Part shown: one piece after another, positions 316-63,000 of the stretch
Numbering within the stretch: the first letter of the stretch is position 1
Layout of the letters: every line of letters begins with the position of its first letter
Assembly: GCF_029227915.1 (NCBI RefSeq)
Contig: NC_079881.1
Location: 19,443,501-19,507,500 of the forward strand
Length of the DNA: 64,000 nt
Origin: Hydractinia symbiolongicarpus
Lineage: Eukaryota > Cnidaria > Hydrozoa > Anthoathecata > Hydractiniidae
Direction: 5' to 3'
Notes under the pieces: model-generated
Seen by the model: only the letters and a program-made list of their open reading frames with translations
What the model was told of the DNA's origin: nothing
Databases searched by the model: none
Translations under genes and position numbers: made by a program

Positions 316-1371
316 CTATTTTATAAACTGAGAGCCCTTCTTACTCAGCAGTTGTCGTATCTCATCTGTATGTGGTATTCCGGCAACATCGAACGCACTT
401 TTACCATATATATTAATTTTATCACGATCGGCATAATGCTTGAGTAGCAGCTTCACGCAACGTGTATAGCCGTTTTTTGAAGCTAAGATCAATGGAGTAC
501 GATTCTTTTTATCTACTTCGTCTACATATGAATCATCTAACTCAAGCAGATAACTCAGTATATTGTACACATCTTCGGAGGCAGCTTTGTGATAAGCATT
601 TATACCATCCTTGTTCCCTGTTGCATAGTCAGCTCCATGTTCGATCAACAGTTTTACCATGCTTGTTCTCTGGTGTTCTATCGCATAATACAATGCTGTG
701 TCACCTTCCTCATCCCTTAGATTGACAATATTTTGCTCCTCACGCAGAAGTCTAGCCATTTCCTCTGTATCGTTATCCAGCATTATGCGACGAATATCTA
801 AAAAAATGTCTGGTTTCATACAAGTTCAAACGGATAAGTTTTGTCAAGTGCGAGAAGTTAATTTTGGATCGTACATCCTAATTCTTTACAAGCGGTACAA
901 TACAGATACAGCCAATAAAGAAATATTAAATAGATAAATTTTTATTATTTTGCAATGGCAAAAGCTATATATGACTTACTTTCGATGGTCTGACTTCCTG
1001 TGTATTCTCGAGATCTAGAGAGAATGAGACTTTCCTTCGAATCAAAGAAATTAGAGAATGGCGAATAACAATAAATTAGATATTATACATACTCATGATG
1101 ATATTGTATTTTGGTGGCTTGTGATTCTCCAACTTTACTAACAGCTGTAATGGAGAAGTTGTATGTACGATCAGCTTCAACAGGAATATTGACAAAGTTA
1201 AAACAATCGTCCCATGGTTGGTAATTCTCTTCCACTTCGTTCCAGATCGTTTCAGTGCTTTCTTGCCGACGTACTACGTAGCGAAAACCTTCGTTTCTCC
1301 AAGCAAGCGAGGCGCTTGCTTCAGATACATATACGCACTCGACACCTTTAACATTTGTTGGAATTTCTAAA
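316..1371 (-). CDS. Exons 4-6: fibronectin III, 35-nt microexon, ankyrin repeats
   Basis: Exon 1371-1093 codes a fibronectin III domain: starts IPTNVKGVECVYVSEASASL, then WRNEGFRYVVRRQ and the usual YNFSITAVSKVGES strand. The microexon 1014-980 has an acceptor CTCTCTAG and a donor GTAAGTC; its 35 nt are needed to bring the FN3 exon (phase 2) into register with the ankyrin exon (phase 1). The last exon has four ankyrin-type units, e.g. GDTALYYAIEHQRTSMVKLL and RTPLILASKNGYTRCVKLLL, and stops at 318-316. A second in-frame acceptor would start it at 809 instead of 797. Confidence 0.7.
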
Positions 1372-4300
1372 CTGAACACAGATGACATATGCTTGTTTTA
1401 ATCGAAGAAGACAATAGACGTTACATTTTTGCAATGTTAACAAATTGTAAATTCTATAAGATTGACTTTTGGCAATCAGCGTTCTAAAAAATTCGCCAAT
1501 CTGAAAAATTTCTAGCGAAAATAACATTTATTTAAAAATTTAGTACCATATAAATATTGCAGAGAACAACAGTAACTTGAGCTGTATAACAAAACGTTTA
1601 TGCGCAGATCTTCACAGCAAGCATAATTAATTGTGAAAATGGATTTTTAAAACTTTTATACTTGTCTAAAACTCTGAATTTTACTATTTTTCATATTATT
1701 TGTAAGAGAAATTCAACTTGCGCAAGAAATAATACTTGCCAAATTTGTCTATATAATTATTGAGCAAAGATAATACACCTAAATTAGTTTTTTTCACTGC
1801 TCGAAAATTAATACGCGCAAAAATGCGGTTTTTTGTAAACAAGAAAAGTTTAACGTCGCTTGGATTCAATGTACCTGAATTTTCACTGGCAGTGCGTTAT
1901 AATACAAAGATACACATAGCATTGCAATAACTTGTTTACTGCCACACAAGCTGATTCAGCGCCAGTGGTGGGCTCCAAACACTACATATAAATTGCGCGG
2001 GAATTAGGACTCGAATGTGAAACCTTATGTTCAGAAGCTAAATGCGCTACCACTACTCAATCTCAACTTCGTTCAATACTTGTTCTGCTCATTATTTTAT
2101 TCAAAAGATCAAATTAAACTCACTTACATAGTTGCTCTGATAGCTGTTTTATTCCACAGAAGTAGTCCCACAGACAAATCAAAGACTACGATGGAGATAT
2201 CTTACCTTCTTATCGCATTCCAATCCGACTTGTTTTCTTCATATAAATCAATGTTTTCTAATTGCTTTTTAACTTCCTTCTTTAGTTCTTTATATCTTTG
2301 ACAGGCCGTGTTTACTTTATCATAAGTTACGTTGTCCTGCGTTGGACCAGGCATGTATTCTTCTTCATCATACCTATCAGCTTTTTCAGCAACACAAACC
2401 ACCTTTAATAAGTTTCTTTGGTTCTTCTTGAACTTTGCAAGAGCATTACCTTCACTATTTTTTTTATCCTTCTCCGTTCCAGAAAAATCAATGAAGATTA
2501 ACTGACACGTTGCTCTTGTCATAGCTTCAAGCGTAGGATGTAGCAGCTTTTGATCCGTCGTGTTTACTCCTACAAGGACATTTTCACAATCGTCACCTCT
2601 ACTGTCTTGCGCAGTAGCTAAGACTGTGTTAAATTCGCAGTTATCATCTTCTTTCAAATTGTAGACAACGTAGGATACTTCTAGAACACTTAAAATTACT
2701 TCAAAAAGCTTTCGCTGTGTGACGCTGTTGTATATAACTCGCAAATTCTCCTTTTTATGAAAGGAATAGTTTTCATTTAAGGCTATGCACAACATTGTTA
2801 ATTGCTCGCTTATATCGTTGCTGTCTTGGTCAGAGTAAATCAAAATTGGTTTATTTCCAGTGATGCCATGACCAACGGTGTTTACTGCTTCGCATTTGAA
2901 TATTGTTTCCGTTTTCAAATCTTCGTTGCATTGAATCGTTTCCATATCCATATTAGCAGCGGCTATGTCAATATCGATTAAGGAAGGCAGCCCAGCTTCA
3001 TTTGCATTTCTGTCATCTTCTTGATCTGAATTTTCCATGGTACCATCTCCTACATCATCTGTTTCTTCAGTGTCAGATACATATCTATTTTCATCAATGT
3101 ATCCCTCATCTTGAAATTCTTGGTCTGTGTCTACTCGTAGAATCTCATCCTCTGCATTTGCTTCTTGGATCTCACTTTTAATATCTAAATTGAACGAGGG
3201 ATGTCGAATTGTGACTTTTTCTTTGAAAAACACCGATTCGGCATGTTGGATAAATTCAAAGTTGCTACAAGTAGTTCTCATGCACTTGGACAATGTGAAT
3301 ACTTCCATGCCAGTCTTGTTATATTCGTACTTCTTGTGAGGCTTTTTATCATTGCGTGACACCAACGTTCTGTGTTTAGCGATGGCATGAGGTAGCAAAA
3401 TAATGGTTGAGAGTAAAAACCTTTTCTTACCCGCCATCGTGCGTAGTTTTTCGGCTTCTGAATCACTTAACTGCTCTCCATCGTATTCATCAACGATCAT
3501 ATGAACATTCGAATCAGGATGTTCTTTTGAAAGACGTTGCCAGAGTCTGGATAATTTTGGAACTCGATTAGTAAAGAACTGTCTAGAAAGCTCGAGCATG
3601 CTTGTGGCAACAATGTTACGGTTTTTAGCCAGTGTACTCACAGTACTCACATACTTCTTTACACTGTCGAGCAACATTTTGCTTTCCCAGGTGATATAAT
3701 AAACTCTATCATCGGTATCAGCATTGTTTGCCAACATTTCTAAATGAGATAAGCCTAGTTGCGTTTTTCCAGTACCAAAATTCCCCAATATTATCTTCTT
3801 GGATGCAGGATTGTGTAGGATCCGCAACTGCTCTCCCGTCAGCAACACTGAGTCCATTCTTTCAGGTAAGCGTTGGCTAAGTGATGGAAGATGTTGTTTG
3901 TTGCATTTTCTCGTAGCCATAAAGGCAACTATTTGGCTAAATAATTTCAAAAAACTATTTTTCTCATTAACATCTTGTGAATTCTCATTTTTCTCCTGGC
4001 ATTGATCGATAAGCGAAATAATAAATTGGCTTGTATTTTTTTTCGTTGAGAATGCTTCTTTACCCATCAGGAAACTTTGACAGTCATGGCATGCCCTATC
4101 TTCTTTGTGAACCACAAACTCTGGTGCAGCAACCACGTTTATAACATTGAAAACTAGTTTCGGAAATAAAATGCGGACCAAGACAATTAGGTATTCTACA
4201 TCCTTAGCGCCGCACTTGAACTCATTCAATATATTTACAAATTTCGTCGATGGGGTGATTCTTATATTGCAAACCACATTACTACGCGGGTGTAGCAACA

Positions 4301-7300
4301 GCATGCGCTTGTTATGATTATTGAAATGCTTCAAGGATGGTCCTTTCAAAAACTTTAAATGTTCGACGTTATCGTAATTTGTTAAAATACCGAATTTTTT
4401 ATACTTCCTAGACTCCAAGATTAATGCACTTTTTATATGCTGGGCATGTTTTGAAATTTCATTAGCAGGATTGAGCGGTGGTAACAGCACTGCTTCGCTC
4501 AGAAATGTGTTCCCGGCGAACAAATATTCTTGTGCGTATTGGAAAGCGTGATTCTGCCATTGTTGCGGAGTTTCTGAATGAAGCTTTCCTGCAATAACAT
4601 ATTCAACGTCAGAATTTACAAATTGCTTCGTCAGGATGGGTTTGATGTCTTCAGAGATTTTGTTAGCACCGTGTGAAAACACTGTGTAATCTTGTGCATT
4701 GTTTACATGACAATGCAAGCAACTTGTCTCGATGTCTGAAAACAAGATTTTACAAGACATTAACATAACGCCGATATAATTGCATCTGCTTCTGTCTAAA
4801 AACCTGTCGCTCAAGGTCTAGGTACAGCTCAAGCTGCCGATATTAATGGTTTTTACCACTTTTCTCTTGGATCAGAAATCTTTTCCATGGACTCGAATTT
4901 GCGTCACAGTGCTGTAGTGTTAGCCGTTGTTTCTGTCAAGCTAATTCGTAGAAATTAACAACTACTAATTTTACTTATATTTGCATGGTAACAGCAACAG
5001 CAATGACGTAAATCCAAATCCAAGGGGACGGTATCATTCCCGAAAAGAAAATACAGAGGATTAAATTACTTTTGTATGTGCAAGACATGGGAGCGCTCAT
5101 ACTTCATTGATTTCTCGTACCGTAAAATTGATTGGTTATAGACATAAGATAAGTAGTTTATTTTTAGGCCCATATTTTCCTGGTTTTCATCTAGGTAGCT
5201 ATATTTCAGAGTCAGAAACCACAGCATTGGACCCAATGGTATGTTTTTCGCATTTGGTTGCGATTTTGAAACATTTATATTGCAAATTAACGATGGTATT
5301 TTAGTTCGTAAATGATGTGGATATATTCTGTTGTTACGAATAGCTCACGCTTCTTATAACTAAGTCAACACACTAGTTGAAGTTGTCGATTCCTCTCTTC
5401 GAAGTTAGAAAATACATTATTATTATGATAGTTACGCGAGAAAAACATTGACTTACCATTGATGTCCAAGATTTTTTCTTCTCCTTCCTGGTCAATCATT
5501 GCAATTGAAATTACACGCGCCGTATCTATTTGGATTTTATTAAATTCTAGGGATACAGTCGCGTCTTCTCGTATAATCTTGTAATCATCTTCTTCAGTTA
5601 GCAATTCGAAAAGAGATTCTTCAAGTGACATCTTTACACTTGTGATCTTGTCCACGCTTTCTATCTGCACAATGACATTACCATTATTGTTGATGAACAC
5701 GTTGTAGCCAGCCACCCTTAAAGATACGAAGTAATCAATAGCCATGGACATTTGAAAAAGAATATATATGTACCGTGCGATACAAAAGGTCAAGTGAGAC
5801 TTTATCTTTACAGTTAAATAATTAATGAGTCTGTGAATTAAGAACAAATGCGACCGTTATTCAACTCATATTTTATGTTCAGGTTTTTTAAACGATTTTT
5901 CAAACAAATGTCCCTTACAAAAACGTAGGCGTTACGGCACTTAGAGCAGAAACGGTATGGGGGTTCTTTAAAAAAAAATATTGGCCGTTCTGGAAACCTA
6001 AATTCCGTCCGTCCGTCCGTCCATCCGTCCGTCCGTCCGTCCGTCCGTCCGTCCGTCCGTCCGTCCGTCCGTCCGTCCGTCCGTCCGTCCGTCCGTCCGT
6101 CTGTCTGTCTGTCACGCAAAATGGTACTTAGCTGCGACGGGCGAACCCGCGGATTTTACACGGGCTAACGACTAGTATATATATATTTTATTTTACACGG
6201 GCTAACGACTAGTATATATATATTGAGACTGGATGGTAAATTTCGAAGCTCGTCCCGGCAGGTAGTGGTATAGGCTATTTCTATACTAGGTTCAAACAAT
6301 TTGAACTTGTCAAAATTAACCAATAATAGCTTAATTAAGTCAGCATTCCGTTAAGTGGACATGGCGGAAAGCGAAGAGCGCAGTGTAAACATTGATTGCC
6401 TAACTTACGCATGTGAATAAGCAGCACTTCCGGTTGCAGAGAACTCGCGATTTTTTACTTTTTGCAAAATTTGCAAAAATGGCCGAAAAGGTGTTTTGTT
6501 GCTAATATTTTGTTGAAAGATTGTAGAAAGTTAGCATATGAGAAAAGTAAGACCAATGATGCTGGACAATCTTTAAAATTGGAAAGGTTACAAAGAAAAA
6601 ACTAATATCTATAAAGACAAAGCGTTCACAGCCGCAGCTCAAAGCGTTAAATGTCAGCGCTCAATATGTTTAATACCCATTTCATAACAGATAACATTAT
6701 TCATTTTGATATGTTGCTAAAGTAACTGTTTATGTAACTTCCAAAGCTGTCTAAATACAGGTATCGCGGCCAGAAATCTCACCAAAAAATCATAAGTTTC
6801 TTATATAAAAATTTATTTTGATCGAGGCTTCATAAAGTCAATACTTACGCGCTCTTGTCGTCAGTAAATACATCTCCAGGAAATATCTTTAGGGTTGATT
6901 CCAAATTTTCGATTCTTTTCGTTACTTCGCTAATGCTACTTTCACTGTCTCGTTTTATCAGTTCCACTTTTTCTTCAATGACTTGAAAATCTGCTTTTAT
7001 GTTTTCGTTGCTTTTTCTAATGGCTTTACATGCATCTTCCAATTTAGTAACGGCTTCATTACTTTCATTTAGCCTCTCGTTCATCGTAATATTCATATTT
7101 TTAAATAGCTCTAAGCTTCCCTGTTTTAAATCATTTAGTTTGCTCACATCGAAATTTAGGCGAACAAGAACTTTTTGGATTTTATTCCAAAGGTCTTCAA
7201 ATTTTTGGGAGGACACACTCCCACAATGCTTTACTTTATTGCGTAACTCTCTGAGTCTTATAATATCTGCAGCTACACTGTGATCGTCATCCTTTGGTGT

Positions 7301-7624
7301 TTTAATACTCCAGCCTCCTTTTGGTTTCTTTATTTTTGGACAACAATTACGAAGTATAGCAGCGAGTAATGTTATATCGAAGTCTTTTGAATCTGTCTCT
7401 TCTGATGGTGGATAGACTAATGCTAATTGATCTTCTTTTAGACATTTTGTTAACTTCTCTTTCGAGTTCAGCAATGCATTATACAATGCTGAACGGTCTT
7501 TTGGTAAATCTCCATATTGTGGATCGTGCAGGTATTCACGGAGATGGTCAGAAGCTTTCTGAATGAGAGTATTCAACTTTTCCGGCCGCTCTTCATCCGT
7601 CAATGTTACTTTTGCTGTGACCAT
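316..7624 (-). CDS. Multidomain HEPN - SF1 helicase-like - FN3 - ankyrin protein (six-exon model)
   Basis: Model: exons 7624-6849, 5830-5457, 4735-2206, 1371-1093, 1014-980 and 797-316 (minus strand). All junctions are GT-AG, the phases (2,1,2,2,1) agree at every joint, and the total is 4,476 nt, giving about 1,491 aa. Order: an N-terminal DZIP3-like HEPN domain with the RNxxxH motif (RNKVKH) typical of HEPN RNases; a coiled coil; an unrecognised module; a P-loop NTPase with Walker A GNFGTGKT, Walker B MIVDEYD and SF1 motif V/VI-like stretches (DSRGDDCENV, EAMTRATCQLIFID); a fibronectin III domain; about four ankyrin repeats. Known: HEPN domains often cleave or bind RNA, and FN3 and ankyrin domains bind ligands. 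Inferred: a cytosolic innate-immune or RNA-surveillance sensor. The start ATG follows an acceptor at about 7630, so a 5' UTR exon probably lies upstream. The weakest joint is exon 1 to 2: the first 33 codons of exon 2 look intron-like. The gene could instead be two genes. Confidence 0.72.
2206..4735 (-). CDS. Exon 3: superfamily 1 helicase-like NTPase core
   Basis: A 2.5-kb exon with no stop. The acceptor TTGTTTTCAG and donor GTAAGATA fit the neighbouring exons in phase. After about 300 residues without a recognised fold (with paired cysteines, CLHCH and CHDCQ), the sequence shows GEQLRILHNP just before Walker A (3762-3785), the layout of SF1 helicases. Walker B (IVDEYDGEQ), a motif IV-like CMRTTCSNFEF, an acidic low-complexity insert and C-terminal motifs V/VI (2486-2600) follow. 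UvrD-like, DUF2075/Schlafen-like and NFX1-type helicases share this scheme; I cannot choose among them. Key P-loop residues are intact, so it may bind and hydrolyse NTP. Confidence 0.75.
6005..6225 (+). mobile_element. Helitron-like short element with GTCC microsatellite
   Basis: A (GTCC)n/(GTCT)n run at about 6005-6114 is followed by GACGGGCGAACCCGCGGAT, an imperfect hairpin, and the end CTAACGACTAGT at 6165-6176. A second copy of just the 3' end (TTTTACACGGGCTAACGAC, then TAGT) follows at about 6191-6213. Hairpin plus CTAG-T ending matches Helitron 3' termini, and a GTCY microsatellite core is typical of HINE/pearl-type non-autonomous relatives. It sits in intron 1 of the HEPN-helicase gene model. 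Confidence 0.55.
6849..7624 (-). CDS. Exon 1: DZIP3-like HEPN domain plus coiled coil
   Basis: Codes for 258 residues beginning MVTAKVTLTDEE. Residues of about 25-165 match the DZIP3/hRUL138-type HEPN pattern: an early SALYNALLNS helix, DITLLAAILRNCCP, then DIIRLRELRNKVKHCG, which holds the RNxxxH signature. The last 80 residues are charged heptad-like sequence (VTKLEDACKAIRKSNENIKA), predicted coiled coil. The exon ends at a strong donor, GTAAGTAT, in phase 2; the in-frame stop is inside that donor. The ATG sits six bases after a TTATTATAG acceptor, so the start codon is close to the exon edge. Confidence 0.75.
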
Positions 7625-33817: not shown

Positions 33818-35309
33818 ATGAGTTTTTTATTTGGTTCGAGAAACAACAAAACATTCAAACCTCGCAAAAGTATACCAGAAGGCACACACCAGTATGATCT
33901 GCTGAAGCATGCAGAAGCAACGCTGGGATCGGGAAACTTGCGAAATGCTGTTATGTTGCCCGAGGTATATAGTTTGTGTTTTATTTGCCAACTTTGAATT
34001 TTATATATGGTAAGATGGTCATTTGCCTGTAATGTTTTAATTTTCAGCATTGTTCTGGGATTTTTTTTTATTTTAAGTATTGTTATTTTTTTAATTTTTT
34101 TTGATTGATTAGTCTACCAGACAAGGAAAATCAGGAGTAAAGTCAGAAAATTAATATACCTTCCCAAAGAACAATTAAAGTCAATTATGTAAATTTGCGG
34201 AAATATTTGGAAGATCAGGAAAAATTACGCAAATGGCATGCATAACTGATACAACCAATGTCAAATTATACTATAGTAGCTTGCTCTAAAAACGAAAGCA
34301 AAATAGTAAAAAATTACGAAAACTTAAAAAAAATGCACCCTAAGATTCTAGGCTAAATGAATTTTGAAGACAAAGGTTTTTTTTTCTAATCGGAAGTGTA
34401 TGTTGGATACTTTTAAATAATGTTTAATTTTGTTGTAAAGTTTTTGAATTTTACCTCATTTTAAGAGAGGAAGTTTGATTTTTGTTTGCTTTTGCGCGTT
34501 ATTCTCTTTGAATAGACTTCTTTGAATGTTTGAAGTTTCCGAGGTAAGCTCTTTTAGCTTTAACAACTGTATAGGGGGCTAAACGATGCAGAACCTTGCT
34601 GAAAAGAGATTTTTTAACCAATTTCTCCCCACAGGATTATTGTTCAGGATATAAACTTTTTTTTGAGTGTAGATGGATACCTTATCTTTTGCCTGTCATG
34701 CAATTGTCAAAGCTAAAAGGGCTTACCACCAAAATGTAAACAATCAGAAAGGGGTACTTTTACGCTAACGCAACTTTGCGCGTTTCCATAATATATATTT
34801 TTATGTAGGGTGAAGATCTCAATGAGTGGATAGCTGTAAACACTGTGGATTTTTTTAATCAAATTAACATGTTGTATGGAACAATCACAGACCATTGCAC
34901 TCCCGAATCTTGCCCCGTCATGTCGGCAGGACCGAAATTTGAATATTTATGGGCTGACGGAGCCTCTGTGAAGAAACCAATCAAATGCTCGGCACCTAAG
35001 TACATCGACTACTTAATGTCGTGGGTGCAGGACCAACTGGACGACGAATCCTTATTTCCTTCAAAGATCGGCGTGCCTTTCCCGAAGAATTTCGTCAGCA
35101 TTGCGAAGACTATGCTTAAGCGTTTGTTTCGCGTGTACGCACACATTTACCATCAACACTTTCCGCAAGTGGTCAGTTTGGGAGAGGAGGCTCATTTGAA
35201 CACGTCGTTCAAACACTTCATTTACTTCGTGCAAGAATTCACGCTGATCGAGAAAAGAGAGTTGGCACCGCTTCAAGAGCTCATCGACAAACTTATCAAC
35301 AAGAGTTAG
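33818..35309 (+). CDS. MOB1: MOB kinase activator 1
   Basis: Two exons, 33818-33964 and 34809-35309, joined in phase 0, give 215 aa, matching MOB1 length. Exon 1 starts MSFLFGSRNNKTFKPRKSIP, the conserved MOB1 N-terminus; exon 2 starts GEDLNEWIAVNTVDFF. The zinc-binding set is present: CTPESC and the HIYHQH segment. Known: MOB1 binds and activates LATS/NDR kinases in the Hippo and mitotic-exit pathways; the SHQYELLKHAEATLGSGNL-like stretch is conserved here as HQYDLLKHAEATLGSGNL. The start is fixed by the family N-terminus; AATAAATAAA at 35510-35519 is a likely polyadenylation signal. It is on the same strand as the 32-kb gene, about 970 bp downstream. No defects are visible. Confidence 0.96.
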
Positions 35310-45358: not shown

Positions 45359-48300
45359 CAGCCCTCGAAATAGCGGTCGGACATCGGACATTGTCCGACC
45401 CAGACGCAAATATGTCCGACGAAAATCAGTTCTGGCCTGTCATTTTGTCCGGCACGTTTCTCTAGCTACATCTCCCCTATTATAACTGCAAAAAATAAAA
45501 ATTGAAACATGCAAAAATAACGAGATAATTTAAATATAATCTGTCTCTTTTAATCAATCTTCGTTCCGCTTCACTTTCGTTTTGTTTTCATCTGCCATGT
45601 GCCATCATGGAAGTTTCTTAATCATGATCACACACACCACAAATAATAAATGTGGTAAGGCGCCGTTAAAAAAAAAAGTAAGGCTGCGCATTTTGATAAG
45701 CCAATTAAATCGCAAAAAATGCCGTCGCTAAAGAATACTCTAAAACATATAAACAAAATAGTTTTTAAGTTTGTATTTTTATAATTATTTGTAAAGTCAT
45801 CACAAGCAAATAGGAAAAAATATGCTTCGTTTTCAAATTAAAAAAAAAATGTTTTAAGTTTATCCACGTGGCTTAAATTTTTAACAAAATTTATACAAAA
45901 CAAAATATTATACCGCACGTGGGTTTCGTTTTTAAAATTGTTCGAATAGAAATAGCACTTGCAGCATTAAGAAAAAATCAATTAAATGGGACCTGCTATG
46001 GTTTCGAATTGTTTTGTCAAACGAAGAAAAAAATTTTCCTTTACCTGCAACACTCCATCGTCCTAAAAAATTATTTAATTCATTTTAATATAAAACATCT
46101 CTGAGTGAGATCATTCGACTGGTAAAAGAACGCCGGTCGCTTGCGCTTTTATAAGAAATGAAAAAGTGTTCATTTCACATTTATCGCATGTAAGTTAGTT
46201 GCTCCTTCAAGTATGAGTGAAATTAATGATTTGCCTTGTTGTTTTTGCGAAAGAAGCACGAAGTATCGGTGTATATCGTGTCAAAAAACATCTTGTAACA
46301 TATGTTCTACCGGTGTTAACAGTACAGTCAATGGGTACAGCGAAGAGGAAAAACGTGTTGGTAGATGTCCTGATTGTTCTGTTGTTATTAATAAGCAGCC
46401 GAAGAAAATCCAAAGAAGCATATTTTCAGCCTTTGGAAAAAACCCACCAACATTAGCGAAGCAATCAGCAACGAATATAGTAATTCTTTACTCTGTTATA
46501 TTTAGTACTTTAATTTTCACAATATCTTTTGTGTCTCTTTAATTTGTTTTAATTGTTTATTTTGCAGACTACACCGCAGACCAAAGGCAAAACAAATCCG
46601 AAACAACACAAGCAAACAACATCAACAAGAACCGTAACACCTGCTACTGTTGAGAAGTGGAAAGCTGAGCTGGCACAACACAGCGTTGCTGAATGGCTGC
46701 TTTATGATATAAAAGATGGCAAGGTTAAGAACATGCGCTGTAAATTTTGTACGACGTATCAGTCCCAGATCAAAACATTGCCAAATTACAGCAACATCTT
46801 CGTTGTTGGCACCCAAAACTACAAAAAAAGTGCAGTAGAAGACCATGCCACGAAGAGTAGACAACACTTAAAAGCCCATAGCCTGTATTTGAAAGCAACA
46901 GGAGTTTCCCTGGATGAACGAGCTACAACGTTGTCTGCGGCCGATTCTTCCAACGTTGTCGCTGGTTTGGCCAAGATGGATGAAAAAGATATGCAACGAA
47001 CGAAAAAGAAATTTGAAGTGGCGTATTTTGTTGCTAAAAATCGCTTACCGTTGACAACATATCCGGAGTTGCTGAAGTTAGAGAGAAAGCATGAAGTTGA
47101 CATTGGTATAGCGTATAACACTGACCGCGCTTGTGGAACATTTATTGATTATATGGGTAAAGATATGAAGCAGCAACTTAATGCTGATCTTGCGAAAGCC
47201 AAGTTTTTTAGCGTACTTTGTGATGGTTCTACAGACAACGCAGTTGTTGAAAATGAAGTAATATATGCATTACATTTTGATCCCACTCCAGTTAACTCAA
47301 ATTGTGTAGAAGTTAAGGTGTCTTTTCTCAGCATGACTCACTTAAAGCATCAACATGCTGTCGGTGTTGCAGCTGCTCTCGCTGAAAGCTACGATGACAT
47401 GGTCACGCTAAAAAGTGCCATTGAAAGTGAGTTTCAGTCTATCGGCATAATGCCAGCCAAAAAACTGATTGGATTTACTTCTGACGGAGCAAGTGTAAAT
47501 CGAGGGAATAAAAATAGTGTAAAAATGGTGTTACGAGAGGAATCGGAGTGGCTTGTATTTATTTGGTGCATCGCACATCGGTTGGAATTGGCCTTATCTG
47601 ATGCGTTGAAAGGTACCGACTTTGATATTGTAGATGAGATGCTACTAAGGACATACTATTTATATCAGAAAGCACCAAAGAAACTTCGGGAGTTACGTCA
47701 GATGCATGATCTTTACGCTCCTGCGATGGACTACATAGAAGGAGGGGTTAAACCCAAAAAAGCAAACGGCACTCGTTGGATCTCACACAAACTGGCCGCT
47801 ATGAAAATTTGTTTGGATAAATATGGTCTTTTCATAGAGCACTTAGAACATCTCAGTCAAGATAAAGCGGTGAAAGGAGAAGATCGTGCAAAAATGAGAG
47901 GTTATCTAAACAAGTGGAAGCAGTCTAAAGTACCATTAATGTTGGCAATGTTTATCGATTTGCTCGAAATACCATCAGCGCTCTCGCAAGACTTCCAACG
48001 TGACCAAATTGACACAGTTTCAGCGATGAGATCACTATCACTTACCAAAGATCGCTTAGCAATGTTTGAGCGCAAAAGTTTTGAAAAATTGCCACACGTG
48101 CAAGACCTGCTAAGTAGAATAGAAGACAAAGATGGCGATAAGTACTACCAAAATGTGAAAATGACAAATTTTGTAGCAGCAAAGGAGCATGTCAAGGCAA
48201 CGAAAGGGAATTTTGCAAATGTCATTGTTGAGAATGTTACATCACGACTTGAAGAAGAAGATGACAGTAGAGATATCTTCAGATACGTTAATCAAATTTT

Positions 48301-49676
48301 AAACACGGAAGGTTGGCTCCGAGAGAAGCAAGACGAAGATGGAAATGTTATTACAGATTACGAGTTTGCTGACGAAGGTTTATCAAATTTAAAACAACAC
48401 TTCGATATTCCATTGAGACATGCCGGCTTCAGTGCTTCAACAGCAGATCTGTTAAATCAATTTCACGATCTCCTACGATACTCACACGAATACCTTTCTG
48501 TTTCGGCGACACCATACAGGGTCTGTTGGAGAAGAATTTTTTCATCATCCAGAAATCAATCGTGGAAAGATTTATTAATTCTCGTCGAATTGTTATTCAC
48601 GATCCCTGTAAGCAATGCCAAGTTGGAGCGCATGTTTTCCAAACTCAAAACTGTCAAAACTATCAATAGGGGTTCATTGTCACAAAACCGACTAGAGTCC
48701 CTTTTGAGGATTGTCGAAGACGGGCCGTCTATAGAGCAGTATGACCCATCAAATGCTATAAGAATGTGGATGGAGGAAAAGGACAGACGACCAAATCAAA
48801 GAAAACGGTGTGGATACAAACCACGTACAGGTTCCAAAAGGAAACTTCCCTCGCTGAGTGACGGCAGTTCAAATGAAGAGAACGAAGATGTGGATGACAA
48901 TGTACTTTTAATCGATTTATTTGGCGATGACAACGAATATGTAGACTTTCTAGGTTTTTAAATACTTTGTATTTCTCTCCATAGTTTTTCTTTGTCTTCC
49001 CAATTTTGTTTTATTTTGTATTTTCTAAACATAAGCAAAGTGATCAAGGCAAGTTAAGGCTTAGCAAACAATAAGTCTCCTTAAAAAATACGGCAGCGAT
49101 AAAAATTCAAGTGCAAAAACGATGGCGAAAATAAATTAACATGAAAGATCTTTTATCACTCAAATTTACAAAAATGACTTTTAAAACAGAAAAGGCTTTT
49201 TCAAAATATAAAAAGAAAAGAACACAAAATTATCTACAATTAAATCCATGATATAACGTCTGTTCCGCCTGTAAGTGCAGTTTTGCAGACTTGCTTCATC
49301 CGTGCTCCGTCGGCGTTCACCTCCGCATTAGTTAAGAACCGCATGGCTGGATTTCTTGTGTAAGACCTGGTTACCAACGACGAAGGGGCCAGGCAATAGA
49401 GATTCATGTCTACGTAGTTCTTTTAACTAAGTCAGGAGTTGGTGAATTAGCTAGGATGGTCAGGTTGGCTATGAATAGGCTTGCTCGTGGATTAAAAGGA
49501 CTAGAACTATTCAATAATTCCGAGATCTAAACAAATGGAAGTGTCCGACCAAGACTGAAATCTATCGGACGTTTTGTCCGACGAAAGTTTAAAACGGGCT
49601 ACGGACATGTCCGACCAAACTGGAAATGTGGCGGACATTTTGTCTGACGAGTCTCCAAAAATTATTTCGAGGGCTG
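45359..49676 (+). mobile_element. Autonomous hAT transposon
   Basis: Inverted ends CAGCCCTCGAAATA and TATTTCGAGGGCTG (one mismatch position at the inner edge) enclose an intact two-exon transposase gene. GTCCGAC/GTCGGAC subterminal repeats cluster at both ends, as expected for transposase-binding sites. Flanks share TGCTTT (left AATGCTTT, right TGCTTTTA), an imperfect trace of the 8-bp duplication. The element is about 4.3 kb. Confidence 0.7.
46213..48961 (+). CDS. hAT family transposase (ZNF862-like), intact
   Basis: Two exons, 46213-46479 and 46568-48961, joined in phase 0 over an 88-bp GT-AG intron, give 886 aa. Exon 1 codes a compact cysteine-rich zinc module (CCFCERSTKYRCISC, CNIC, CPDC). 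Exon 2 opens with a basic linker and a BED-type finger (CKFC ... DHATKSRQHLKAH). Catalytic-core pieces of hAT enzymes are visible: FFSVLCDGSTDNAV (first Asp), LIGFTSDGASVNRG (second Asp) and the WCIAHRLELALSDAL helix. The C-terminal hAT dimerisation motif is FTIPVSNAKLERMFSKLK. An acidic tail follows. Known: hAT enzymes cut and paste via hairpin intermediates with 8-bp duplications. No stop or frameshift is seen over 2.7 kb, so it may be recently active. Translation could also start in exon 2 at 46553. Confidence 0.9.
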
Positions 49677-57000: not shown

Positions 57001-60000
57001 ATTTGATAATTTTAAAACCCTTAATATTTAGTTTTTACTTGGAGAAATCTGTTTATTTAAACACAATAAGTTTAAACTGGTGATATATATTTTAAGATTA
57101 GTAGAGACGGTTGCATGTTTGTAGTTTTTTTAAATTTATAAACGATTTAAGCAAAACACAGTTCAGACAATCCATTTCCTTGTTTCGAACCAAAATATGA
57201 AAATTTGAAAAGCTGGGTAGTTTAAAAACATTTTGATGTTATTATTTGTCATTTCTGTAATGTTTTTTGTTCACAGTTTTGATGGGAGCGAAAATGGTCA
57301 ACCTGCAGAAAAACGACAACGTAGGACTCAAAGTGTACTTGTTGAGCAGCCCAGCGAAGATAAATTTTTAGTTGATAACGTTGTTAATAATTCGTTGGCA
57401 CTAGATGAGGTATCTATATCCTTTTAAAAAGCTAAAATAGTAATGCATAAAATAAAGACTTAGGTCAAAGTTTAATATTCCAGTAATGTTTTCCATAGTT
57501 TTTAAAAAAGTTTACAGTTTCACCAACTTTTGTCAGTATTTAAACCCATCTTTGTTGAATGTGCAGTGAACATAAATTCGAATTTTGTCTTCATTATTTA
57601 ATAAGAAAAATCGGCATAAATTTGTCATTTCAAACTTTTACATTTTTCATTTTTCCTTCCACTCTGCTGTGGTCATCTTTTTATAATTTTTTGTATTTAG
57701 CTTGACAACTGGCCTTTTGAAGATTTTTGTGTGGAACTATGTAATGATCTTTTTAATCCTGCTTGGGAAGTCAGGCATGGCAGTTCGTCTGCTCTGAGAG
57801 AAATTATTAAACTGCATGGAGACAGTGCCGGGAAAAGTAAGGAGACACAAGTACTCAAAGTAAGTTGCGATGGAGGTCTTTCAAACTCTAAAGGCAAGTT
57901 TTACTGTGATGCCTTTTGTTTTTATTTTATTGTTTTTTTTCATTGTAATCTCTCTAGCAATGTTGCTGTAACCGATCACTTTCACAATGCAATATATATC
58001 ACTACATTTTGTAACATTGGTTTTAATAGCCGTTACAATTTACATGTTATTTGCACAGCAAAAGTAGTTTTTTAATATTTGTTTTGTTCGCTGTTATTGT
58101 AATCTCGATTTTCAATGATTGACCAAACTCTGTAGATGATTTTGGTCAACCATTGATAACACTTGCAAGTATCAGAATTTTTGTAATGTAGAATATAAAC
58201 AAATTTATTTGCATGGTTTCTTTCACTTTAGACTGTTTGATTTATTTATATTTGTTTGTATGGCCTCAGTGACTTTTTGCCTTTTTAGATGAGAGAGGCA
58301 AACACATCTTGGCTTGAGGATACAGCTTTGAAACTGCTTTGTGTATTCGCATTGGACCGGTTTGGTGATTTTGTTTCAGATGAGGTTTGCTTTTTCCCAC
58401 ATTCGATACTACAATTCTAAGGGACTCAATGTTAACGAGAACTAGTTTTCCAAAATACTAGTTGATATTATTTTCCTACTTATACACAAATTTCCTAATA
58501 ATTTTTGTGGAAACAGTAAAATTGACCAAAACCTGTAAAATTTGCAAAAAATTATTGCCGCAAAAAGGCACTACTACAATCTTGCAAATTATTCTTGTTC
58601 TACAGCATTTTTTTGTGATCCCTTGTGAGAATATTGTCAGGGAATTCCATGAGACGCGTGCGCGCCCACACACGCGCAACAGGTATTCAGGCGTGCAATT
58701 CATCGCACGCGCTAATTACGCTCGTTACTCCCGTAAAATAAAATAAAAAAAATTAACGAAGGAATTATATAAGTTGATTTTCTACAGTGTAGTTAATGTT
58801 GCCGCTTAAGGCTATGCTTTAAGCATTTAACTATTAAAAACTGTATCCCAAAAATCAATCGTTTCAATCGACAGCTTCAACTGTATCAGTAAAAACAGTT
58901 TATAACTGCTTGTGGTTAAATTAAATTTTTTTAAAAAAGTTAATTAAATGCCGTGTTTTTTTCCGTGTTTAAATTAAATATTTTTTTTCTGCCTGTGTGA
59001 AATTAAATGTTGAACATTTTATTTTAAAATTCTTAACTGTATAAAAGAACATAACATACTCGCGTGAGAAATTTTTAAATCTTTTTTTCTTTATTGTTGA
59101 AGAGAGAGAAAAATGTGTGAAAATGTGAATGTTTTCATTCATTTTTTTTGCACAGAATTTAATTGTTGCCACCAGCTCTCGAGGGACCGGTTTTATATTT
59201 GATACAATATGAACACATGTGACTTCAAATAAACCTTCTGCATTGTCATTGGTTTTTTAAATAAATTTCAAATTTAAAAAAATTTCATTCGCGACAGTCT
59301 GAGACAAAAATCTTATTTCAAAACTTTATTTGTTGAAAACACGCACAAAATAATGACTTCGACGCCAAAAGGAAATAAAGTTGAACTTTCTACTTTCGAT
59401 TGTTGGGGGAAATCAGGAATTATTGATAGGGAAATTCAAGTTATTGATGGCAAACAGTACGTCACAAAGGTTTGGTGTAAAGTATGCGCGAAACATGCTC
59501 CCGCACTTAAAAGTACTTCGTTCTACCGTGGATCAGTAAAAAAATCGATTGATGCATTTATATCCGGAACTAATTCTGTTACTAAATTTCAAGTAGATCG
59601 TCATATAAGCACCGAGGCACACAAACGAGGAATTGAATTAGAAAGTTTACTTCCAACTGCTGTAAGTAAGATTTCCGCTAATTAATATAATCAAGATACG
59701 ACCTCGTTCTTGCAACTTTTTAAAAACATTTGTCGTTGTTGTTGTTGTCCCAATCCCAAGAGCGCCGGGGACGAGGTTGATGCAACAGAAATTACAGATT
59801 TTTTATATATTTAATTCAGGAACGATTGACCGCCGTGCCGTCTGGTTCCAAGCAGCCAAAGATATCAGTTTCAATACGTTCATCAGCTAACCAGTGCTAT
59901 CGTAGAATGATGGTGTGTGCATACGATCTTGCCATGAACCCAACCTTGCCACTGAAGACATTTAAATTAATGAAGTCCAAATAACATCCGAGGACTATCG

Positions 60001-63000
60001 AAAAAAAATGATAAGTGCAACTGCGGACGGTACAAGTGTCAACATGGGGGCACATAAAGGTGTCCTAACCCAGATGGCTGAATCTCGTCAGTGGCTTTTA
60101 AAAATTCATTGCGTAAATCACCGCATCGAGTTAGCAGCTAAGAGTGTAGTGACAAATTCTGTTTTTGCAGAAGTAGAGCAATTTTATTTATCTATCTATT
60201 TCTTTTTACGCAACTCGGGGCGTTTTAAAAGCGAATGTGGACATGCGGCAGAAAGTGCAAACGTCGATTACAAAGAGCTTCCTAAGATACATGGGACAAG
60301 GTTTCTTGGCCACAAACGTGACGGAATCTAGAATTTCCTCTTTAATTGGCCTGTATTCTTGATGACATGCGAGAATGCTGTATCATTCACTGGAGGTCGA
60401 AGTTACCAGAACGTGACAAAAGCCAAAATTAGAGGTTTTTTGCACAAGTTTCAGGACTATCGCATACTTTGCCTAACTGCAGGTTACTTAGATCTATTGG
60501 AAAAAGCCACTCCGTTATCTAAAGTCTTCGAGTGTGAATCCATAATGCCCTTCGACGTAAGCCCTGCAGTAAATGTAGCCAAACTAGAGCAGCAGGATTT
60601 GGCGGATACTGCATGTACGGACGAGGAAATGATGGATTCCAATATCGCGAACTATTGTGTTATTGAAGAAACCGACTTAGGAGAGAAATATATCGCTGTC
60701 AAAAGAATTGTTAAAGGCGACATGAGAAAAAAACCTGCCTCACGTCAAGCGATAGAGCTGAAGATAACAGGCATTAAAAATGCGAACGAAGTCACCAGAG
60801 AAGCTTCATCTCAAGCCAAAAAGCGGGTAGCATTAGAACTAATCGAAGTTCTTGAGCAACGCTTCGCTGACTTTGAAGCTTCTATCTTTAAAGATATGCG
60901 GTGGATGGATATCTTGTCTTGGTCAGACGAAATTAATTTTGGAGACGACCAAGTTATTGCTCTATCTACGCATTTCGATGTACCATTGAACCAGGCAGGC
61001 TTTGACATTGGTTGTGTATTAAAGGAGTGGAAATCTTGCAGGCGCTACGTAAAGGCAAAGTTTACCGATCTCGGAACAAAGAATGCGATTGTTTGGCGTC
61101 ATATCATCATGCGTTGTAAGGAGCAATTCCCAAATATTTGTTTACTCCTTTCAATGGTCATGTCCATATCAGTATCAAACTCAACTGTTGAAAGATGCTT
61201 CAGCATTTTGACGATGATGATGACTGACCGCAGGCTGCGATTATCACATGAAGCAATGCGGGATGTTATCCGGATAAAATGCAACGACAAACTATGGTCA
61301 GAACAAGAACGCAACGAAATTATCGATAGAGCAGTCGAACTTATGCTTTCAAAACGGCGTACTACACAAATTGACAACTCAACGAAGCGACCATTGCAGT
61401 CTGATGATGCAGAATACACGCCAATTACCAACGACGGCGAAGACAATGAAGATGAAATTGATTTTGATTTAGAAGATGTTGTTTTGAAAATATTTTGTAC
61501 TACCTAACAGATAGACTTCGGAAATGTCTTTCTTGTTTTACTTTTAAAAATCTAAAGAACAACTTTAAATCTAAAAACAGCTTAAACTATTCCACACAAG
61601 CCGTCTCCCAAAAGCTAACAAACAAAACTTGAAACCTCAATAAATAAAAAATGACTTCCATTTTTACCATTGTTATAGTAATAGATAACCTACGGAGAAA
61701 ATATAACAACAACAAGGTTGGGATAAATAGCACTACAAACAAAATGGCAGACCATTGCAGTAAGTGCAACGTGTGGCACGTGTCAGCATCTCTTCGTCCA
61801 CTGTTTAAATTTAATTATATGTTATTTACCTATTATAAATTACTTCCTACAACGAACTAAGGTGTTTTGTTAAAATATTTAGCACTTTTACACCACTTAA
61901 AGAACACTCACGGAACTGATAAGAGTGAAATAATATAAACCAGGAAAAAAATCGAAAAAACGCACGCTCAAATTTTCTAAAATAGATTTACGCGTGCGAT
62001 GTGTAGCACGTGTGTTGTTTTCTTCGTGGAATTCCCTGATTGTGTCACAATATTCTTGCGTGGCTTTGTTGTACACATGTTTCCAATAAAGTTGTAACAA
62101 TGAAATTTTTTTGTAACTATTGTACAACAACTGCTCAACAAATAATGTAATTTTTGTAAGGCAATAATTGTTTTCTTGTAGGTGGTTGCACCAGTCCATG
62201 AAACATGTGCACAAACTCTTGGCACAGTTCTACATCATATGACTAATGAAAGTGTTTTAAAAGTGTTTAGCATACTTATAAAACTTCAAGAGCAAAATGA
62301 ATGGCAAGTTAGGCATGGAGGACTGCTTGGTTTGAAATACATGCTGGCTGTCAGAAAGGTGACATTCTTTATCTACTTGTACAGTTTTTTGTGGGTATTT
62401 TATTTGGTGTTTTGTGTATGCTCACCTGACAAGTTATGCACAGCAAACAATATTCTCTGTAATAGTTTTCGCAAAGTTGTTAATATATATAGCAATGGGT
62501 CACTAAAATACCACTGACTCATAAGTGAATCATTAATATAGCTTATTTTCTTGTACATAATTATGCTGCCACGTTTCCATATTGTTCTTATTGCTATGCC
62601 CAATTTGAATTATACAGCATTACCATCTATTTCTTGTATACAGTATGGTCGGAAAAATAACAGCTTTTGAAGCAAGCAGGAAGTTATAAAAAAATGAAAG
62701 AAAATACCAAAGTGATTGCAAAAATTGAAAAAAAAATACAGGACAATGTAAAATAAACTTTTTGTGCAGATTAAATATTGCATGGTTTTTGTGCAGATTA
62801 GGTTTTGTCAATTTAGTTGAAATTTGTAAAAGTCACAAATCCACCTTTGTATGTGAAAAAGGAGTCTCTTTATAGTAAGCAATCTCAGTCTTTACGAATA
62901 TACTATATTTTCTGCATGCTACTTTTTTTAAAAATCAAAACATCTTTTTTATTCCAAACCATTTTTGAGGAAATTTAATACATACCTAAAATAGAATTTA

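Follow-up and report, generated by a model that had tools for sequence, protein, structure and literature searches.

The described systems that most resemble the gene considered here are the cnidarian proteins of the HEPN_DZIP3-NACHT and HEPN-NB-ARC-TPR types, which belong to the NOD-like receptors (NLRs) and carry a DZIP3-type HEPN domain first, an NTPase in the middle and repeats last. According to PMC8260672, HEPN_DZIP3 is the commonest partner of NACHT, leucine-rich repeats (LRRs) excluded, in nine cnidarian species, and HEPN_DZIP3-NACHT represents a common cnidarian NLR layout; the word Schlafen does not occur in that paper. The same order of parts is found in LOC130649428, a gene of Hydractinia symbiolongicarpus located in the stretch of 64,000 nucleotides analysed here (contig NC_079881.1, positions 19,443,501 to 19,507,500, henceforth the window). 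Both kinds of genes occur in the same genome, and one HEPN lineage is common to the family of the window gene and a gene built on a signal transduction ATPase with numerous domains (STAND). The window gene differs from those NLRs in that its NTPase gives no NACHT or NB-ARC match and its tail consists of a fibronectin type III (FN3) domain and ankyrin repeats, instead of LRRs or tetratricopeptide repeats (TPRs). The Schlafen proteins of group III, e.g., SLFN11 and SLFN14, in which a nuclease is joined to a helicase of the superfamily 1 (SF1) type, offer a second term of comparison. The NTPase exon weakly resembles them in sequence and fold, whereas the window family uses HEPN as the nuclease (or TIR as the effector) instead of the Schlafen core, ends in an FN3-ankyrin tail, and comprises dozens of copies with exchanged N-termini. 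The tail can be likened to FANK1, a protein in which FN3 is followed by ankyrin repeats and which is not known to possess HEPN, TIR or an NTPase. Among bacteria, HEPN domains fused to an SF1 helicase (Abi2/Swt1 group) or to a Schlafen domain (MAE_18760 group) are placed in a defence setting in PMC3710099, but these fusions use other HEPN families and have transglutaminase and Vsr nuclease among their partners. The same text names TPR, Zn-ribbon, RING, ankyrin, CARD, NACHT, DEATH and LRR as partners of the DZIP3-type HEPN, SF1 not figuring in that enumeration, and describes lineage-specific expansion as common among eukaryotic defence genes. No description of a HEPN/TIR-NTPase-FN3 family was found among the titles and abstract beginnings of open papers, most subscription papers and bioRxiv lying beyond the scope of this search.

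As far as their sequences tell, the genes of this family combine an exchangeable N-terminus (HEPN, TIR or unassigned domains), a common chassis made of exon 2 and a P-loop NTPase, and an FN3 tail with or without ankyrin repeats. This is an NLR design with a predicted helicase-like NTPase at the place usually occupied by NACHT or NB-ARC. On balance, we favour the view that the window gene belongs to a large and expanded family of intracellular receptors of tripartite build: the tail would sense, the ATPase would switch and HEPN or TIR would execute. A broader proposal, to which we give slightly less than an even chance, is that of an animal receptor class parallel to the NLRs, with a Schlafen/SF1-type engine replacing the STAND switch, HEPN shuffled between both engines and TIR mounted on the new one, Hydractinia harbouring dozens of HEPN-SF1-FN3-ANK and TIR-SF1-FN3-ANK receptors.

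LOC130649428 consists of one six-exon gene on the minus strand (window 7624-316), with GT-AG at every border and phases that close. This agrees with the original prediction, and taking exon 2 as 5830..5457 gives back precisely its 4476 nt. The acceptor at 5830 was nevertheless wrongly chosen and is ruled out, since the 38 extra residues it brings are absent from both P0001, the RefSeq model of isoform X2 of LOC130649428 (1194 aa, exon 3 identity 100%), and P0002, a protein of 1442 aa (exon 3 identity 89%), which both use 5716. The corrected model has 4362 nt and 1453 aa and comprises, from the N- to the C-terminus, HEPN, a coiled coil, a small domain, an 843-residue P-loop NTPase exon, FN3 and ankyrin repeats. 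P0001 backs the first two junctions and departs from the six-exon model after exon 3. An alternative acceptor at 1366 on the minus strand, 5 nt inside exon 4, yields exactly the NSNKC end of this predicted isoform, because entry at 1366 shifts the frame so that the protein stops before FN3 and the ankyrin repeats; a separate exon for this end is thus unneeded. P0002, in turn, spans all five junctions, including that of a 35-nt microexon, and carries HEPN, NTPase, FN3, microexon and ankyrin repeats in a single frame. Its source contigs (up to 5018 nt, with a source tag 'lgn' which we take to denote an assembly of public reads) fall short of the 7.3 kb over which the gene extends in the genome and are thus cDNA-like, so that P0002 is best read as the spliced transcript of a close relative. 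It supports the earlier expectation of one protein rather than separate HEPN and NTPase transcripts, and separate genes are rejected because it joins all the parts. Moreover, the same part order recurs in three paralogues with an exon 3 identity of about 30%, and from exon 2 on their splice sites are compatible with the phases of the window gene, which makes the architecture of the window gene more than a chance assembly.

Exon 1 (7624..6849) contains the start codon and the DZIP3-type HEPN domain (PF18738, residues 57-171), which reaches 98.9 bits (E=2.9e-28) against a curated Pfam cut-off of 27 and holds an intact RNKVKH at residue 128, in agreement with the HEPN and RNxxxH motif first proposed; it is followed by a coiled coil recognised from weak sub-cut-off Pfam matches and by eye. 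A search of PDB sequences with this exon gave no convincing match, the best one (E=0.037) being a ribosomal protein aligned with the coiled-coil part. A CCGT tetranucleotide repeat occupies window positions 6001-6110, in the intron that separates the HEPN exon from exon 2. Exon 2 (5716..5457) encodes a small domain devoid of any Pfam match, and similar exons precede the NTPase in paralogues, as judged by eye; P0001 reads AVAGYNV and P0002 AVACYNV at this place. Exon 3 (4735..2206) combines an N-terminal alpha/beta domain of about 285 residues with the P-loop NTPase, whose two lobes are separated by an acidic linker. Exon 4 (1371..1093) corresponds to FN3, with a Pfam score below the cut-off (fn3, E=0.0026, 18.3 bits against 25), and matches the FN3 exons of paralogues; among these, the FN3 of L028 reaches 24.5 bits with fn3 (E=3.2e-5, same cut-off) and matches a titin FN3 at E=1.1e-12. 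Exon 5 (1014..980) is the microexon, a short linker which in P0002 reads SREYTGNQTIE, and exon 6 (797..316) contains the ankyrin repeats (Ank_2, E=3.2e-31) and the stop codon.

A genome search with exon 3 scored 54 NTPase loci out of 111 candidates, a lower bound inasmuch as L023, a member recognised otherwise, is missing from them. The main matched stretch is free of stop codons in 50 of these loci, and the 53 loci other than the window gene are 29-35% identical to its exon 3. Contig C2 holds 36 of the 54; on this contig, HEPN and NTPase matches repeat with equal scores at 5.7-7.0 and 10.8-12.2 Mb, as after a segmental duplication or a retained haplotype. Twenty regions, none longer than 9.9 kb, were read, 19 of them around HEPN matches taken from the best 23 of 108 (two skipped) and one adjoining the window. 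In L019, L023 and L028, the same NTPase is followed by FN3, with additional ankyrin repeats in L028. FN3 occurs behind the NTPase at all seven loci for which downstream DNA was read, and ankyrin repeats at three (window, L028 and L035). L035, downstream of the TIR gene L033, has both; behind two HEPN-type genes, the 5 kb read in L036 and in L038 contain FN3 without ankyrin. The splice sites of the window gene, L019, L023 and L028 fit phase 1 at the border of exons 2 and 3, phase 2 between exon 3 and FN3, and phase 2 after FN3, and those of the ankyrin exon fit phase 1 in both the window and L028. A candidate linker exon in L028 was not confirmed, and a single in-frame stop occurs at L028:6743-6745, in the linker between the NTPase lobes, which may reflect a pseudogene, a small intron or an assembly error. 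A comparison of L019 with L023 shows purifying selection on exon 3, with a ratio of nonsynonymous to synonymous substitution rates (dN/dS) of 0.33, lower in the P-loop lobe (0.19) and higher in the linker (0.55).

The N-terminal part is exchanged between copies, as is the effector of NLRs. A HEPN match stands upstream on the same strand, 1.5-6.8 kb away, in 34 of the 54 NTPase loci when a distance of 10 kb is searched; over the same distance, no locus has one on the opposite strand, nor downstream on its own strand, the uniform chance estimate being 0.06. Eight of the 20 loci deprived of HEPN possess instead a TIR_2 match 1.35-3.2 kb upstream on the same strand, out of 30 such matches in the whole genome, and all eight are grouped on contig C2 at 12.69-13.93 Mb. 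Upstream DNA was read at five HEPN-less loci (L031, L032, L033, L034 and L037). In L033, an exon 2-like exon comes after a TIR exon (E=1.4e-17); in L031 and L037, an exon of the exon 2 type is the sole one recognised within 4 kb. In L032 (1853-2596, plus strand) and L034 (2439-4000, minus strand), helical exons stand ahead of the exon 2-like exon; they look Death-like by eye, are unconfirmed by Pfam and are not claimed as such, and may possibly represent a third type of effector.

In the other HEPN regions, read on the HEPN strand, partners could be assigned except in L010, L013, L018, L024 and L025. Depending on the locus, HEPN is associated with NACHT (L011, L012, L015, L022), NB-ARC and TPR (L009, L014, L016), LRR (L017, L020), TPR (L027), or an nSTAND5-like NTPase and TPR (L021; nSTAND5 at 25.3 bits, under the cut-off of 34); relative to NACHT, NB-ARC, nSTAND5-like and LRR partners, HEPN comes first. 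The HEPN-NB-ARC-TPR gene of L014 (4066-6861, minus strand) lies on the same chromosome and strand, some 80 kb from the window gene, so that both types of engines are found near each other. In L024 (5690-8941, minus strand), reverse transcriptase, endonuclease and PHD-finger matches adjoin the HEPN exon on the opposite strand. In a tree of 21 HEPN domains, the window and L028 form one group (95/98), and L019 and L023 cluster with the STAND-type L021 (98/96), whose next long open frame is the nSTAND5-like one; in the NTPase tree, L028 groups with L019 and L023 (100/99), and P0003 and the window carry a long-branch warning there. A single clade of NTPase-linked HEPN domains was rejected by the approximately unbiased (AU) test (p=0.005), run after the first tree had been seen and on 17 of the 21 HEPN rows, L010, L010b, L013 and L025 being left out. 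Because the HEPN domains of NTPase-linked and STAND-type genes mix on the tree, HEPN exons seem to have been moved between STAND-type and helicase-type genes. The strict RNxxxH motif is kept in 17 of the 21 rows, including all four NTPase-linked ones.

By its motifs and weak scores, the NTPase of exon 3 is likely, though not proven, to be a Schlafen-type SF1 helicase-like module. It contains, under SF1 motif names that we assign presumptively, LTGEQLRIL, Walker A GNFGTGKT (residue 663), MIVDE (758), a motif V-like SRGDDCENVLVGV and a motif VI-like MTRAT (TRAT at 1085). Walker A, Walker B and motifs V and VI follow each other in order, as seen by eye, and are aligned in paralogues, with a conserved SRAT or TRAT about 320-420 residues past Walker A (422 in the window). 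The sole Pfam match of exon 3 is AAA_22 (E=0.003, 18.3 bits, under the cut-off of 27), and no SF1 profile exceeds its Pfam cut-off in the window exon 3, in the relatives scanned from the protein database, P0003 and P0004 among them, or in L019, L023 and L028. The protein database yielded few relatives that may come from outside Hydractinia, namely P0003, with an exon 3 identity of 30% and without any Pfam family over cut-off, and twelve ENA proteins, 24-32% identical over part of the exon. A second round of protein search using the alignment gave no further relatives, a PDB sequence search with exon 3 alone found none, and searches with exon 3 patterns gave 144 pattern matches in viral contigs and 53 in bacterial and archaeal genome contigs, none of which was confirmed as a relative. 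Structures were predicted for the whole 843 residues, poorly (predicted local distance difference test, pLDDT, 48.2), and for 460 residues (pLDDT 68.5); in these models, the first NTPase lobe aligns to RecA folds and the second is modelled at low confidence. The claim of an NLR-like plan in which another NTPase replaces NACHT or NB-ARC is strongly supported by the 54 scored copies, the exchange of HEPN and TIR, the HEPN lineage in common with a STAND-type gene, FN3 at seven of seven loci and ankyrin at three of seven, while the SF1 label attached to that NTPase draws on the order of its motifs and on profile and fold scores that are weak.

A possible mode of action can be outlined for such a receptor. 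A foreign or stress ligand would be recognised by the tail of FN3 and ankyrin repeats, or else by the NTPase; the helicase-like module, perhaps while on nucleic acid, would bind and hydrolyse ATP, which would lead to a conformational change or to dimerisation or oligomerisation, helped by the coiled coil. HEPN RNases work as dimers, hence the proposal that the coiled coil and the NTPase join the HEPN domains. Paired HEPNs would form an active RNase, or paired TIRs an active NADase, and the cutting of RNA (or NAD) would stop growth or kill the infected cell. The predicted isoform devoid of FN3 and ankyrin repeats could serve as a regulator or as a constitutive form.

Several observations weigh against the receptor reading or parts of it. 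No ankyrin exon was found in the downstream DNA read at four of the seven loci, 12 of the 54 NTPase loci lack both HEPN and TIR upstream, and the equal scores of some C2 loci suggest that part of the copy count may stem from recent or haplotype duplication. At the border of exons 1 and 2, L028 fits phase 2 of the window gene, but L019 and L023 are less clear and rather fit phase 1, and exon 1 (HEPN and coiled coil) is under weak constraint between these two loci (dN/dS 0.60). The sub-cut-off score of L021 and the running of the AU test after a first tree and on fewer rows, both given above, also count on this side. With regard to the NTPase, the scores that suggest a helicase-like nature are all weak. 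NPHP3_N, a STAND-like family, scores weakly and below cut-off in P0003 (E=8.1e-4) and L028 (0.01), and L019 matches ATPase_2 (8.2e-5) and, over cut-off with 23.9 bits, the SF2-type ResIII. With a threshold of E<=0.001, neither exon 3 model was matched by Foldseek, and the Schlafen rows in VIA show a high root-mean-square deviation, level with the Rho, RAD51 and KaiC rows.

The rival that survives best, unlikely as we consider it, is a Schlafen-like restriction factor, in which the helicase module would bind viral or damaged nucleic acid and HEPN would cut it, FN3 and ankyrin merely holding the complex together or localising it. In its favour stand the motifs and weak Schlafen scores just described. 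At E<=1, however, no SLFN family was found for exon 3 of the window and no AlbA_2 core in the five exon pieces scanned, P0004 falls just below the SLFN cut-off (23.6 against 24 bits), and the TIR that replaces HEPN in eight genes does not fit a cutter of bound nucleic acid, so that these TIR versions disfavour a restriction factor as the whole story.

Distinctly less probable is an ordinary NLR in disguise, exon 3 being a very divergent STAND (NACHT-like) switch whose helicase motifs have been misread. The NPHP3_N scores and a match of L019 to nSTAND_NTPase5 (0.064) speak for it, as do the remaining parts of the protein, which all follow the NLR design. Yet no NACHT, NB-ARC or other STAND model was found in Pfam for exon 3 of the window at E<=1, while seven further HEPN loci give NACHT or NB-ARC matches over cut-off with the same library; the SRAT or TRAT is placed like SF1 motif VI, and SLFN-g3_helicase matches, with weak scores, more members of the exon 3 alignment than NPHP3_N, which is found in two of 14 at E<=1. 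To a comparable, low degree of probability, the family could serve signalling or allorecognition in colonial tissue, with an expansion tied to the discrimination of self and non-self rather than to defence against pathogens: Hydractinia is a hydroid known for allorecognition, and the large expansion with its concentration on C2 would suit such a role, but intracellular defence is what the HEPN and TIR effectors suggest, as does the relationship of the family to HEPN-NACHT genes. Finally, an annotation artefact made of separate HEPN, NTPase and FN3-ankyrin genes lying side by side, suggested by the RefSeq isoform that stops ahead of FN3, is very improbable in view of the single frame of P0002 on such short contigs, of splice phases that close and recur in paralogues, and of HEPN matches that are always upstream on the same strand when present.

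The remainder of the window contains other recognisable features, all on the plus strand. An 802-aa open frame at 46553-48961, with a C17orf113-type zinc finger and a hAT dimerisation region matched in Pfam, corresponds to a hAT-like transposase or a gene derived from it. A second hAT-like element at 59278-61507 consists of two open frames, a zinc finger piece (E=8.5e-4, sub-cut-off) and a dimerisation region (E=5e-6). A Mob1/phocein exon at 34809-35309 (E=1.3e-75) belongs to an ordinary conserved gene.

If the family indeed consists of intracellular receptors of the tripartite kind favoured here, the effector-switch-sensor plan would be independent of the STAND NTPase and would have been built a second time in an animal, on a helicase-like motor. 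Both versions of the receptor would share their HEPN effectors through the exchange of exons, and Schlafen-type antiviral proteins would be linked to the NLRs. Hydractinia would then represent a tractable hydroid with dozens of receptors, suited to the study of RNA and DNA sensing, of cell death driven by RNases or NADases, and of receptor diversification.

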